This document shows positions 37,784-43,240 of a stretch of 64,000 bases of DNA, piece by piece. How positions within the stretch are numbered: position 1 is the stretch's first letter; every line of letters begins with the position of its first letter. Under the pieces are notes generated by a model. That model did not search any database. It was not told the origin of the DNA and saw nothing but the letters and a program-made list of their open reading frames with translations. Origin of the DNA: Bacteroidia bacterium (lineage in GTDB: Bacteria > Bacteroidota > Ignavibacteria > SZUA-365); NCBI GenBank assembly GCA_027493955.1, contig JAOSJT010000001.1, forward strand, positions 1,255,131 to 1,319,130, given 5' to 3'. The position numbers and the translations under genes were made by a program.

Positions 37784-38086
37784 TCACGTTGCGGCACTGC
37801 GTCTGTGCGGTACGATGGCGTTCAGTTCTTTGTCGATGCGTCGATGTGTTTTTTCGAGATCGCACAAGGCCTGCGCCCGAAGCCAGTAGCCGTTCGAAAG
37901 TCCGAAATACCGGCACAGCCGCAGATCGGTATCCGCGGTGATGGCGCGTTTGCCGGATACAATCTCGCTAATGCGTTGCGCCGGTACGCCGATGTCTTTC
38001 GCCAGTCGGTATTGTGATAGACCCATGGGAAGCAGGAACTCCTCCAGCAGGAGATCTCCAGGGGTTACGGGGGGCAGCGAGTTCAT
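37784..38086 (-). CDS. higA: HigA-family antitoxin
   Basis: 100 residues from the ATG at 38086, preceded by GAGG; a TTG 15 bp earlier is less likely. The XRE helix-turn-helix of the HigA/VapI type is clear: PPVTPGDLLLEEFLLPMGLSQYRLAKDIGVPAQRISEIVSGKRAITADTDLRL. It follows its toxin gene by 11 bp. HigA binds the toxin and represses the pair's promoter. Confidence 0.92.
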   Translation of the reverse strand: MNSLPPVTPGDLLLEEFLLPMGLSQYRLAKDIGVPAQRISEIVSGKRAITADTDLRLCRYFGLSNGYWLRAQALCDLEKTHRRIDKELNAIVPHRRSAAT

Positions 38087-38097
38087 GGCGTGTATCC

Positions 38098-38376
38098 TCA
38101 ATGGTAATCAACAATTTCGACATCCGCGGCGCCGTGCTCCGTCCAGCGAAAACAGAGGCGCCATTGATCGTTTATCCTGATGCTGTGTGTTCCGACGCGT
38201 TCGCCTGCAAGCGCTTCCAGCCGGTTTCCCGGAGATACGCGCAATTCCTTCAACGACATCGCGATTTCCAGCTGGCGCAATTTTCTCCGTGCAACAGTTT
38301 CTATCGCTGTGAAACGGCGCACGCGGTATCCATGGGCGAGCTTTTCGGTTGCGTCACAGCGGAAGGAGACGATCAT
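38098..38376 (-). CDS. higB: HigB-family toxin
   Basis: 92 residues of the RelE/HigB fold: MIVSFRCDATEKLAHGYRVRRF ... ARRKLRQLEIA ... LKELRVSPGNRLEALAGERVGTHSIRINDQWRLCFRWTEHGAADVEIVDYH. The family cleaves mRNA on the ribosome. GGAG lies before the ATG. It is complete and upstream of higA. Repeat modules follow on both sides, so the pair looks like a cassette. Confidence 0.93.
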   Translation of the reverse strand: MIVSFRCDATEKLAHGYRVRRFTAIETVARRKLRQLEIAMSLKELRVSPGNRLEALAGERVGTHSIRINDQWRLCFRWTEHGAADVEIVDYH

Positions 38377-38504: not shown

Positions 38505-38810
38505 TCCTCTCCGCGCTTTCATTCAATGGCTTCGGTGCAGGGATCACAGAGCTCACAGAGGGGAACAGAGGGCACAGAGAGAGATTTTTATGACGCAGTC
38601 TCTCCGCACTCTCATTCGATGGCTTCAGCGCAGATCGGGAATAGTTAATCGGGAAGTGGGAATCGTTAATCGGGAATCGTTAAACGTAAGTATGCGCATC
38701 ATTCGGAAAGGTGCTTGGTTGCTCTGCCAGCGAACGTTCGACTTCCGCCCAAAAACCTCTCCCCGCGTACGTCGCTCTCGTCGCTCTCATTCGATGGCTG
38801 CGGCGTAGGG
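38505..38810. repeat. Dispersed intergenic repeat modules
   Basis: Three copies of the CGCTCTCATTCGATGGCTTC module (about 38508, 38598 and 38757), with GGAATCGTTAATCGGGAATC direct repeats between them (38636-38690) and CACAGAGG-type units. No gene. Confidence 0.75.
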
Positions 38811-38874
38811 TTCACGGAGGTCACAGAGGGAAACAGAGGACACAGAGGGATGTTTTGCAGTCGCCGCCTCCGTG

Positions 38875-39075
38875 CTCCTCCCCTCCGCGACTCTGTGCAG
38901 ATCCTGAGCGAGGTTTCGCGGTCCCTGAGCGTAGGCTCAGCCACCACCGAAAGGCTGCATCTTCGCGGCTCAGTCTCCTCCCCTCCGCGACTCTGTGCAG
39001 ATCCTGAGCGAGGTTTCGGCGGTCCCTGAGCGTAGGCTCAGCCGCCACCGAAAGGCTGCATCTTCGCGGCTCAGT
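38875..39075. repeat. Tandem duplication, ~100-bp unit
   Basis: Two copies with a period of 100-101 bp: CTCCTCCCCTCCGCGACTCT, GTGCAGATCCTGAGCGAGGT and so on. A third unit starts at 39076 and is cut short. Open frames across this stretch are repeat artefacts. Confidence 0.85.
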
Positions 39076-39289
39076 CTCCTCCCCGCCGCGGCTCCACGCT
39101 CGGGACGGTGCCGGCGAAATGCATTGACAGCGGATGCGGCGTTGCGTAGCTTGTTTTTTCGTGCGCGACGGTTGTCGCGCGGGACGCATCGAAACAGGGA
39201 ACGGCCGGCAGGGCGTGCGTGGTGCAGGGAAACGCGCCCGATCCATCGGAATGTTCGTCATCATCACGGCACAATTACGGGGAAAACTG

Positions 39290-41368
39290 ATGCTGTATCA
39301 ATCATCGAGAGCGCTTCAACTGCTGAGACTGGGAACGGGTATCGCGGACGCCACCTTCCGCGAGGGGCAGGAAGAAGCCATTCAACACATCGTGGAAGGT
39401 CACGGCCGTCTGCTCGTCGTGCAAAAAACGGGCTGGGGCAAAAGTTTCGTGTATTTTATCGCGGCGCGCATGCTGCGGGATGCCGGCCACGGTCCGGCGC
39501 TGCTCATTTCACCGCTGCTCGCGCTGATGCGCAATCAGATCGCAGCCGCCGAACGCATGGGTGTGCGCGCGGCGAGTATCAACAGCGACAATCAGGATGC
39601 CTGGACGGACATCGAGTCCCGTCTCGCGCGGGATGAGATCGATATCCTCCTCATCTCGCCCGAACGATTGGCCAACGAGTGGTTCCGCGCCAATGTGCTG
39701 GGTCCCGTCGCCGCGCGCATCGCGCTGCTGGTGATCGACGAGGCGCATTGCATTTCCGATTGGGGACACGACTTCCGTCCGCAGTATCGCCTGCTGGAGA
39801 GAATCGTGCGAACGCTGCCGCCGAATATGCGTCTGCTCGCCACAACCGCGACGGCGAACAATCGCGTCCTGGAGGACCTCGTCGCGGTGCTGGGTCCGGG
39901 GCTGGCGCTGTCCCGCGGCGATCTCAATCGCGCCTCGCTCTGTCTGCAAACGCTGCGGATCCCGGGACAGGCCGAGCGTCTCGCGTGGCTCGCGGAGCGC
40001 TTCGCGACGCTCGACGGTCATGGCATCGTGTACACGCTCACCGTCCGCGACGCGGGCCTGGTCGCCGACTGGCTGAAATCCCGCGGCTTCCCTGTGCACG
40101 CATACACGGGAGATACGGGTGAGCGCCGGGAGGAGCTCGAATGGGCGCTGCTGCGGAATGAGGTAAAAGCCCTCGTCGCCACCACCGCCCTGGGCATGGG
40201 CTACGACAAACCGGATCTCGCCTTTGTGATCCATTATCAGATGCCGTCCTCGGTGGTGGCGTATTACCAGCAGGTGGGCCGGGCGGGCCGCGCGCTGGAC
40301 GCCGCGTACGGTGTGCTGCTCAGCGGCGAAGAAGACGACAGTATTAACGACTATTTCATCCGCAGCGCCTTCCCCACCCGCGAGGAAGTCGCCGAAGTGC
40401 TGCGCGCGCTGGAGCAAGCTCCCGACGGCCTCTCCGTGCCCGAGCTGCTGAGCCGGATAAACGTGAGCAAGGGTCGCGTGGAGAAAACTATGGCGCTGTT
40501 GTCGCTCGAGTCGCCGGCACCGATCGCCAGGCTCGGGAGCAAATGGCAGCTCACGGCCGCGACGCTCGGCGAAGCGTTCTGGGCACGCGCCGGGCGCCTG
40601 ACGGCCTTGCGGCGCACGGAGCACGAGCAGATGCTGGAGTACCTGCGTCTCCCCTTCGGCGAGCATATGTCCTATCTCATCAGGGCGCTCGACGGCGATC
40701 CATGCAGCGTTGGCGCGCCTCCGCTGGCGCCCCTGCCGGAAAGTGTTGACCCGTTGTTGCTTCGAGCCGCCATCGCTTTTCTGCGCCGCAGCAGGCTGCC
40801 GTTCGAACAGCGGAAAAAATGGCCGGATGGCGGTCTGCCGCGCTATGCCGTCAAAGGCATGATCGCGGCCGCGCAACAGGCGCGTCCCGGAATGGCCCTG
40901 TGTCAGTGGGGCGACGCCGGATGGGGCGACGATGTGCGAAAAGGGAAATATCGCGACGGCCGCTTCGCCGACGCATTGGTCGCGGCAGCCGCAGCCATGG
41001 TTCGGGAATGGGATCCGCAGCCGGCGCCCGCGTGGGTGACCGGCATTCCCTCCCTCAGGCACCCCGATCTCGTAGCGGACTTCGCCGCACGTCTTGCCGC
41101 TGCGCTCGGCCTGCCGTATTATACAGTACTCGTACGGACCGACCACAGACCTGAACAGAAAACCATGGCAAACAGCACACAACAGGCGCGCAATGTGGAC
41201 GGCGCTCTCGCCTGCAACGGCGTACCGATGCCCGAAGCGCCGGTCCTGCTGGTCGACGACATCGTGGATTCACGCTGGACCCTGACCGTGGCCGCGTGGC
41301 TCCTGCGCTCGCACGGGAGCGGCGACGTGTGGCCGATGGCGCTCGCGCGGGCGGGGTACGAGCAATGA
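39290..41368 (+). CDS. RecQ-family helicase fused to a phosphoribosyltransferase domain
   Basis: 692 residues from the ATG at 39290. The RecQ-type SF2 helicase core occupies residues ~15-350: [13 protein letters not shown] (motif 0), [11 protein letters not shown] (Walker A; TGWGKS), [38 protein letters not shown], and [10 protein letters not shown] winged-helix-like segment follows. The C-terminal ~90 residues are phosphoribosyltransferase-like with the PRPP loop [22 protein letters not shown]. The stop overlaps the start of a DprA-like gene (ATGA), indicating a two-protein system. The domain calls are firm. A defence role is inferred by analogy with ShosTA, a PRTase/DprA toxin-antitoxin. 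Confidence 0.9.
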
Positions 41369-42354
41369 ACGGACCACTCTCCGACGATACCCAGGCCATT
41401 CTGCTCCTGACGGCGCCGTTGATCGCCGGCAGGTCCGCGACGTCAACGGAGCTACTCACACCGGGCGAATACAAACGCCTGGCCGCGGTTCTGCGCGACC
41501 TTCAGAGCACTCCGGCGGACCTGCTGACCTCGCGCGCAAGCGCGTTGACGGATGCCTGCGCGGCGGTTGTCGCCCCTGATCGCATGGGCCGCCTGCTGAG
41601 CAGGGGCTTTCTGCTGAGCCAGGTGGTCGAGCGCTGGCGGAATCGCGCGATCTGGATACTGGGTCATACCGATGAGGGCTATCCGCAGCGCTTCAGGGGT
41701 CGCCTGGGCGAGGATGCGCCACCGGTGCTCTACGGCTGCGGAGACGCGGACATCCTGGATTCCGGAGGTCTCGCCGTGGTTGGCTCGCGCAACGCGGAGG
41801 AAAAGCTCATTGACTTTACGATGGCTGTCGGAAGCTTAAGCGCCCGTGCCGGCAGAACACTGATTTCCGGCGGCGCCAGAGGCATTGATCAGGCGGCGAT
41901 GCGCGGCGCATTGGAGGCAGGCGGAAGGGTCAGCGGTGTGCTCGCCGACAGCCTCGAACGCAGCACGATGCAGCGCGAGCACCGCAACGTGCTGCTCGAC
42001 GGACGCATGGTGCTTATCTCGCCGTACGATCCCAATGCGGGCTTCAACGTCGGCAATGCCATGCAGCGCAACAAGCTGATCTACGCCCTGGCGGACGCGG
42101 CACTGGTGGTTTCGTCGGATCTGAAAAAAGGCGGCACCTGGGCCGGTGCCGCCGAGCAGCTGGATAAACGGAGATTCGTACCGGTTTTCGTGCGTTCCGC
42201 GGGAGAAGCCTCCGAAGGACTGACCGCCTTGCGCGCCAGGGGCGGGATTCCGTGGCCGGATCCCCGGGACGTCGACGACTTCGCCGCCATCTTCGACATA
42301 CCACTCCCGCGACCGCAGGAGGGTACACAAGACACCCTTTTCGGTTTTCCGTAG
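41365..42354 (+). CDS. DprA/Smf-like protein
   Basis: 329 residues, translationally coupled to the RecQ-PRTase gene by ATGA. The Rossmann-like DprA fold is recognised from [54 protein letters not shown] and [46 protein letters not shown]. Housekeeping DprA loads RecA on transforming DNA. The diverged form here, paired with a PRTase fusion, fits the antitoxin-like DprA of ShosTA-type modules better. The N-terminal ~90 residues are helical and untypical. Confidence 0.85.
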
Positions 42355-42514
42355 AAGGGCACGGTAGGCGTGACGCCGGGTGCCGATCATCCTGAGGTAA
42401 ATTTCGAAGCTTTCGTTCGGTGGAGTTAAACCGTTAAACGTTAAACGAGGGAGGGCTCTCTTTCTATGTGGGGCTGGCTCGCTCTGCTTACGGATGTTTG
42501 CGTTGGGCCTGAAA

Positions 42515-42562
42515 TGCTCTCCCCGTTCTCATCGCTCTCATTCGATAGCATCGGTGCAAGGG
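42515..42562. repeat. Dispersed intergenic repeat module
   Basis: CTCTCCCCGTTCTCATCGCT and CTCATTCGATAGCATCGGTG, a copy of the module seen at 28.6 and 38.5-38.8 kb. It is preceded by GTTAAACCGTTAAACGTTAA (42425-42445). Confidence 0.7.
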
Positions 42563-42606
42563 TTCTTAAGGGGGAGAGGGTCGTTTGCGCTTGTAGCGCC
42601 GCGGCT

Positions 42607-42795
42607 TTATTTGATCGGCGTAATCCCCAGATCCCTGCAAATCTTTTACGCCAGGAGTTCTTTGATCTCCGAATGCCGGGGCACGGCTGAACGGGTATTC
42701 ATTGTCGGATTCCACCACCACGAGTGTTTGCTTCCCTCCCGCAGCAATGCACACCTCTGGCTGCGAAGATAGCGCAGGAGGTCGCCTCTCTTCAT
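42607..42795 (-). pseudogene. hicA: HicA-family toxin with premature stop
   Basis: The frame MKRGDLLRYLRSQRCALLRE, GSKHSWWWNP, RHSEIKELLA is a HicA mRNA interferase with the catalytic His in GSKHSWW. At codon 50 a TAA (42646-42648) interrupts it, yet the same frame continues with KICRDLGITPIK and a second TAA, the normal HicA ending. The toxin is thus cut to 49 residues and loses its last helix. It overlaps hicB by ATGA. Confidence 0.82.
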
Positions 42796-43004
42796 ACAGC
42801 TATTTTTTCGGTGCGGAAGCCACCGCCCGCTGCATTCAATGCGTCGCGGCGGTTGAATTCCAGCGCTTCCCGCAATGTCACCGCCAGGGTTTCCATCAGG
42901 TCTTCATAGCTGCTTTCCTGACAATTCACACCGGGAACTTCCTCGATCCATCCTATCCACCATTCACCGTCTTGCTTGACAACGGCGGTATATTCGTTCT
43001 TCAT
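42792..43004 (-). CDS. hicB: HicB-like antitoxin
   Basis: 70 residues from the ATG at 43004, which has GGAG in front. MKNEYTAVVKQDGEWWIGWIEEVPGVNCQESSYEDLMETLAVTLREALE is the partial RNase H fold of HicB antitoxins. It is short and without the DNA-binding tail of long HicB forms. It is upstream of hicA with a 4-bp overlap. The antitoxin is intact while the toxin is truncated. Confidence 0.87.
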   Translation of the reverse strand: MKNEYTAVVKQDGEWWIGWIEEVPGVNCQESSYEDLMETLAVTLREALEFNRRDALNAAGGGFRTEKIAV

Positions 43005-43129
43005 CAGTACATTCTCCTTGTTACCGTACCGTGGGATGGCGGTTGTTGGCACAAGCAGTCAGTTCCATCCCGTCAACCACCCGGCAATGTAGGAATTTTT
43101 TCGGGTCGCTGCGCACGCGAGCTGAGGTT

Positions 43130-43240
43130 GAGGGAGTGCCGCCCTCCGGGCATAAAAACCTCTCCATTATCTCTCAACATGGCTTCGGCAGAGAATCGGG
43201 GGAGTTAAACTGTTAAACGTGAAATGTTAAACGATGGGAG
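43130..43240. repeat. Dispersed intergenic repeat modules
   Basis: GGGAGTGCCGCCCTCCGGGC, CTCTCAACATGGCTTCGGCA and GTTAAACTGTTAAACGTGAA follow one another, each a diverged copy of modules found elsewhere in the window. No gene is visible from 43005 to 43451. Confidence 0.6.

Follow-up and report, generated by a model that had tools for sequence, protein, structure and literature searches.

Gene Organization of the Locus

The window, that is, the whole stretch of 64,000 nucleotides that was analysed, carries on its plus strand two overlapping genes, psyrT (rqlH) and psyrA (rqlI). The features of the pair and the evidence for each are as follows.

39290-41368, plus strand: psyrT/rqlH, RecQ-like helicase with a C-terminal phosphoribosyltransferase (PRTase), 692 aa (PADLOC PsyrT, AlphaFold2)
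39353-40384, plus strand: RecQ helicase core, residues 22-365 (Pfam/NCBIfam, structure match)
39428-39445, plus strand: Walker A motif TGWGKS, residues 47-52 (K51 invariant in 47 homologues)
39737-39748, plus strand: DEAH box, residues 150-153 (D150 invariant in 47 homologues)
40655-40708, plus strand: approximate site of the RqlH-type zinc-site Cys cluster, absent here (alignment)
40814-41359, plus strand: PRTase domain, residues 509-690 approximately (similar by profile to PF00156, PRPP synthetases, PurF and PsyrT, with a weak similarity to ShosT)
41243-41272, plus strand: PRPP-binding loop, residues 652-661 (conservation in 47 homologues)
41365-41368, plus strand: ATGA start/stop overlap of psyrT and psyrA (sequence; common in homologues)
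41365-42354, plus strand: psyrA/rqlI, DprA-family antitoxin, short form without winged helix, 329 aa (PADLOC, AlphaFold2)
41635-42225, plus strand: DprA Rossmann domain, residues 91-287 (PF02481, 2.1e-35)
42328-42342, plus strand: QDTLF (residues 322-326), a putative binding motif for the sliding clamp DnaN, in a disordered tail (pLDDT about 51, family enrichment)

The start of psyrT was placed at the ATG at 39290, with the stop codon ending at 41368; a longer in-frame ORF from 39134 is an upstream extension that the homologues lack. PsyrT matched the PADLOC PsyrT profile over its full length (870.7 bits, 1.7e-262; residues 4-689 corresponding to profile positions 4-685 of 689), and Pfam placed the DEAD domain at residues 25-196 (7e-25) and Helicase_C at residues 242-335 (4.5e-14). 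A structure search with PsyrT matched RecQ-family helicases over residues 1-482 with Z up to 40; it gave helicases only, and the PRTase part was hardly probed by it. The AlphaFold2 model had a mean pLDDT of 90.7.

Taken from the window sequence alone, the predicted PRTase domain is sub-threshold (PF00156, single sequence, E 0.017, below the cut-off), while the assignment is firm through the homologues. PF00156 was matched by 26 of 30 homologous PRTase domains (best 5.8e-8), ShosT was matched weakly in 25 of the 30, and a profile of the domain recovered PRPP synthetases and PurF from the PDB. Within the PRPP loop, D656 was invariant in the 47 homologues, and D657 and S661 were conserved in at least 90%. 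Thus the residues needed for activity, in the Walker A motif, the DEAH box and the PRPP loop, are intact in PsyrT. A sequence-only reading of this DNA had described a helicase core and a C-terminal PRPP-binding loop in one protein, joined by an ATGA overlap to a diverged DprA, and all of these elements were recovered.

PsyrA matched its PADLOC profile at 392.4 bits (6.2e-118). The mean pLDDT of its AlphaFold2 model was 91.9, mostly above 90 in the domain and about 51 in the C-terminal tail, and the nearest folds were ShosA (8zva) and DprA (3uqz). The C-terminal winged helix (HTH) found in most PsyrA proteins is absent. No remnant of it was found within 1.6 kb downstream of psyrA, and other natural short forms exist, ruling out a frameshifted or truncated antitoxin gene. 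Two sister Chlorobiaceae copies also differ (L034 short, L036 long), indicating that loss of the winged helix recurs; the domain is common in the family and does not define it. A broken antitoxin gene was seen elsewhere, on Sinorhizobium meliloti pSymB (L142, 8077-9500), where the homology of psyrA shifts frame after about residue 256 and psyrT stays open beside the interrupted gene.

Assignment to the PsyrTA/RqlHI Family

The locus almost certainly belongs to the PsyrTA (= RqlHI) family, whose defining layout it shows: helicase and PRTase in one protein, with a DprA-family partner immediately downstream and overlapping. PsyrTA is the Pseudomonas syringae toxin-antitoxin pair of Sberro 2013, as cited under the name syrTA in PMC9122126, where shosTA, syrTA and rqlHI are grouped as systems with DprA-like antitoxins. 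The copy of P. syringae GAW0119 is 71% identical to the window copy, lies in the same zinc-less clade and has the same RecQ-PRTase fusion with a downstream DprA, differing in that the window antitoxin is without the C-terminal winged helix.

For RqlHI of extraintestinal E. coli, RqlH was reported to be genotoxic without RqlI, and its toxicity depended on the PRTase domain, including the DIVD loop (PMC4670107). The PRTase domain by itself was not toxic, helicase mutants were deregulated, indicating that the helicase domain helps to restrain the PRTase, and RqlI bound RqlH and countered its toxicity, for which residues 1-320 sufficed and the HTH was dispensable (PMC4670107). The window pair shares with RqlHI the gene order, the helicase and PRPP motifs and the DprA partner. 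By motif, K49 and D148 of RqlH match the window Walker A motif and DEAH box, and the window PRPP loop contains the DIVD motif, mutation of which left RqlH non-toxic. In contrast, RqlI has an HTH domain, the RqlH-type clade carries the zinc-site Cys cluster, and the window copy is only about 46-47% identical to an E. coli plasmid homologue. The HTH-less form of window PsyrA agrees with the dispensable HTH of RqlI. As in RqlHI, where this was demonstrated, the PRTase is probably the harmful activity of window PsyrT and PsyrA its restraint, judging by analogy.

The sequence-only reading had proposed a ShosTA-type variant, and the kinship in domains and logic stands: ShosTA of P2-like phages (PMC9122126) also combines a PRTase effector with a DprA-family partner, the nearest fold to PsyrA is ShosA 8zva, and the homologous PRTase domains match ShosT weakly. 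Membership itself goes to PsyrTA/RqlHI according to PADLOC. ShosTA has a stand-alone PRTase, its DprA gene comes first and it lacks a helicase, whereas the window pair has its PRTase fused to the helicase and its genes in the opposite order; the best ShosA model reached 76.6 bits against 392.4 for PsyrA, and the named family fits exactly. A ShosTA variant is therefore highly improbable.

A housekeeping RecQ/DprA pair was ruled out by the family cut-offs and by separate canonical copies in the genome. PsyrT shares the helicase core with canonical RecQ and scored 255.6 bits against an NCBIfam recQ equivalog cut-off of 640.2; PsyrA shares the Rossmann fold with canonical DprA and scored 87.9 bits against a dprA equivalog cut-off of 191.15. 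The same genome has a canonical RecQ-like gene and a canonical DprA elsewhere.

Distribution and Subfamilies

Full-length PsyrT was found in none of 11 sampled same-family relatives. Across the class it occurred in about 22 of the 294 genomes, when three copies truncated at contig ends are counted. Scanning species genomes brought up 80 relatives, 47-75% identical and spread over many phyla; the DprA partner lay downstream in most of the 80 loci, frequently with the ATGA overlap, so that the conservation of gene neighbours, which the sequence-only reading had put up for checking, was borne out. That reading would have been given up for a pair that is housekeeping in nearly all relatives or a PRTase loop that is not conserved; neither was found, since the pair is not housekeeping and the loop is conserved.

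One E. coli allele was present in 53 of 5426 complete genomes. On an E. coli plasmid (NZ_OX030731; L141, 5007-8524) this allele is flanked by hsdS and hsdR within a type I R-M operon, an Acinetobacter copy (L143) lies inside a BREX operon, and a copy on a viral contig adjoins hsdM/hsdS-like genes. The neighbours of the homologues are mixed and mostly diverse, with type I R-M, BREX and WYL genes among them; the surroundings of the pair in the window show no obvious defence island. The absence in relatives, the patchy presence and the plasmid, R-M, BREX and viral-contig copies mark the pair as accessory and, it appears, mobile.

This distribution bears on the model of Russell and Mulvey, in which a helicase/PRTase module with a DprA co-factor would serve DNA maintenance, not defence, and be toxic only on loss of the partner. 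RqlI binding and context-dependent effects accord with such a role, as do the occurrence of RqlH alone in many Gram-positive genomes and a report that no phage protection by PsyrTA was detected in one E. coli strain, NILS69 (PMC12409345). However, patchy occurrence across phyla and copies on plasmids or embedded in R-M and BREX operons better suit an accessory conflict system, and we consider the maintenance role improbable. The best explanation as a whole is a chromosomal PsyrTA (RqlHI) toxin-antitoxin/defence pair, with a probability of about 0.8.

A tree of 49 PsyrT proteins fell into two fully supported halves, one with the window copy and P. syringae, the other with E. coli. The zinc-site Cys cluster is absent in 23 rows (the window's half) and present in 26, a single change on the tree. 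The rows nearest to window PsyrT come from Desulfuromonadales, Solimonas, Sinorhizobium, Mesorhizobium and Chlorobiaceae; with such mixed taxa the tree does not follow species, which by itself does not prove transfer.

Flanking Modules and Repeats

HigBA and HicBA modules had been noted on either side of the pair. HigBA is present on the minus strand (37784-38376; HigB PF05015 2.6e-14, HigA HTH_3 1.7e-9), while HicBA is partial. The HicB-like ORF (42792-43052, minus strand) had sub-threshold Pfam matches only, and the HicA frame (42607-42795, minus strand) is broken by an in-frame stop codon (42646-42648, the 50th of 63 codons), so that the HicBA-like module (42607-43052) looks degraded or truncated.

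Dispersed repeats occur in the non-coding DNA that borders the pair on either side (38505-39094 and 42417-43224). One family, of 38 nt, is found at 38505, 38598, 38773 and 42524; there is also a 76-nt tandem pair at 38918/39019 (96%), and the repeat GGAGTTAAACYGTTAAACG lies at 42422 and 43201. These repeats might mark an insertion boundary.

A Clamp-Binding-Like Motif in PsyrA Tails

Bacterial sliding-clamp ligands carry Q-aliphatic-x-[L/M]-[F/L] or a six-residue form, with natural exceptions at position 2 (PMC11139829). The window tail, QDTLF, fits Q-x-x-[L/M]-[F/L] in a disordered region and does not fit the aliphatic-position-2 consensus, having D in place of the usual aliphatic residue. 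The pattern Q..[LM][FL] or Q..[LM].[FL] was scored in observed against shuffled tails; it was spotted post hoc on the first PsyrA set, and the sequences counted are related to one another.

Of 91 PsyrA tails, 61 had the motif, where shuffling gave 15.0 (sd 3.3; z 13.7), and controls with the anchor Q swapped for A, E or N gave z of 2.2, 0.2 and -2.0. The stricter published form, with an aliphatic position 2, was found in 32/91 against 6.2. With representatives limited to less than 55% identity, 25/36 had it against 8.7, and a distant clade (about 30% identity), gathered with a few plasmid copies once the motif had been fixed, gave 12/18 against 4.1. Within the last 10 residues it was present in 31/94 PsyrA proteins versus 6/529 neighbouring proteins (Fisher p 3e-22) and 0/30 canonical DprA proteins, whose tails as a whole showed no excess (14/30 against 13.4). 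QLSLF-like motifs are common to short and long PsyrA forms, lying at the extreme C-terminus in 33 and in the linker in 23, and about 30% of the homologues lack the motif.

On these sequence patterns, docking of the PsyrA tail on DnaN has about an even chance. The tail could instead contact PsyrT or be a degradation signal of a labile antitoxin, with no clamp binding. The protein that carries it is an antitoxin and has to bind its toxin, and C-terminal tails can act as degrons. However, the Q-anchoring is specific, with other anchors null, and the motif is retained although it lies in the linker of some proteins and at the extreme C-terminus of others, a pattern that docking on a separate, conserved partner would predict. 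Some ShosA proteins, which are paired with a different toxin, have it too, and it matches the published clamp-binding consensus (PMC11139829). A toxin contact or degron thus appears unlikely, the less favoured of the two readings of the tail.

ShosA Tails and Other DprA-Based Pairs

The ShosA of phage P2_4C9 (PADLOC 764.6 bits) ends in QQLSLLGDE, containing a clamp-binding-like QLSLL, a Paracoccus homologue ends in QQLSLF and a Piscirickettsia one in QQDLNL. In this small sample, several other ShosA proteins had degenerate versions, and one archaeal and two actinobacterial proteins had none. An archaeal PsyrA with a PCNA-type box was also sought: the Halanaeroarchaeum PsyrT is without an adjacent PsyrA, and the box was absent from the tail of a Halopiger ShosA-like protein. 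A literature search, thin on subscription journals and preprints, found no link between PsyrTA or ShosTA and the clamp.

Searching the organism's own class with the ShosA profile PDLC02997 gave no match and was uninformative, since the controls gave none either; the profile PDLC03961 is unspecific and matches nearly every genome through canonical DprA. Two further arrangements were observed. A haloarchaeal plasmid (L178, 2761-4409) encodes a ComF-like PRTase followed directly by a DprA-like protein, with an adjoining integrase, and is a candidate archaeal ShosTA-like pair. Pseudomonas plasmids (L224, L225) encode a DEAD/DEAH helicase with a DprA of about 490-500 aa, with no PRTase in the stretch shown, possibly a further DprA-based arrangement.

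Proposed Mechanism and Significance

For the window copy, we infer its toxin activity, clamp docking, trigger and any phage defence in the following scheme. PsyrT would couple a RecQ-type ATPase/helicase to a PRPP-dependent PRTase which, if unrestrained, would damage DNA metabolism (SOS response, filamentation). The helicase may act as a DNA sensor for the PRTase, as the sequence-only reading suggested. PsyrA, probably made by translational coupling through the ATGA overlap, would bind PsyrT and keep the PRTase off, and its disordered tail would place the complex on the sliding clamp DnaN, at replication forks or on DNA that carries a loaded clamp. The inhibition would then be lifted when a phage takes over or abnormal single-stranded DNA appears.

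More broadly, PsyrA/RqlI and at least part of ShosA may be clamp-docked guards, tethered to DnaN and monitoring the replisome, such that phage interference with clamp or fork frees the PRTase; we regard this proposal as evenly balanced. The pair is a new member of a described family, and the clamp motif is a new, testable property of that family. The window pair also offers a well-preserved natural variant, both zinc-less and HTH-less. If true, clamp docking would be a concrete and testable answer to how DprA-PRTase systems sense infection, and it would join PsyrTA and ShosTA under one logic, with the replication machinery as the thing guarded.
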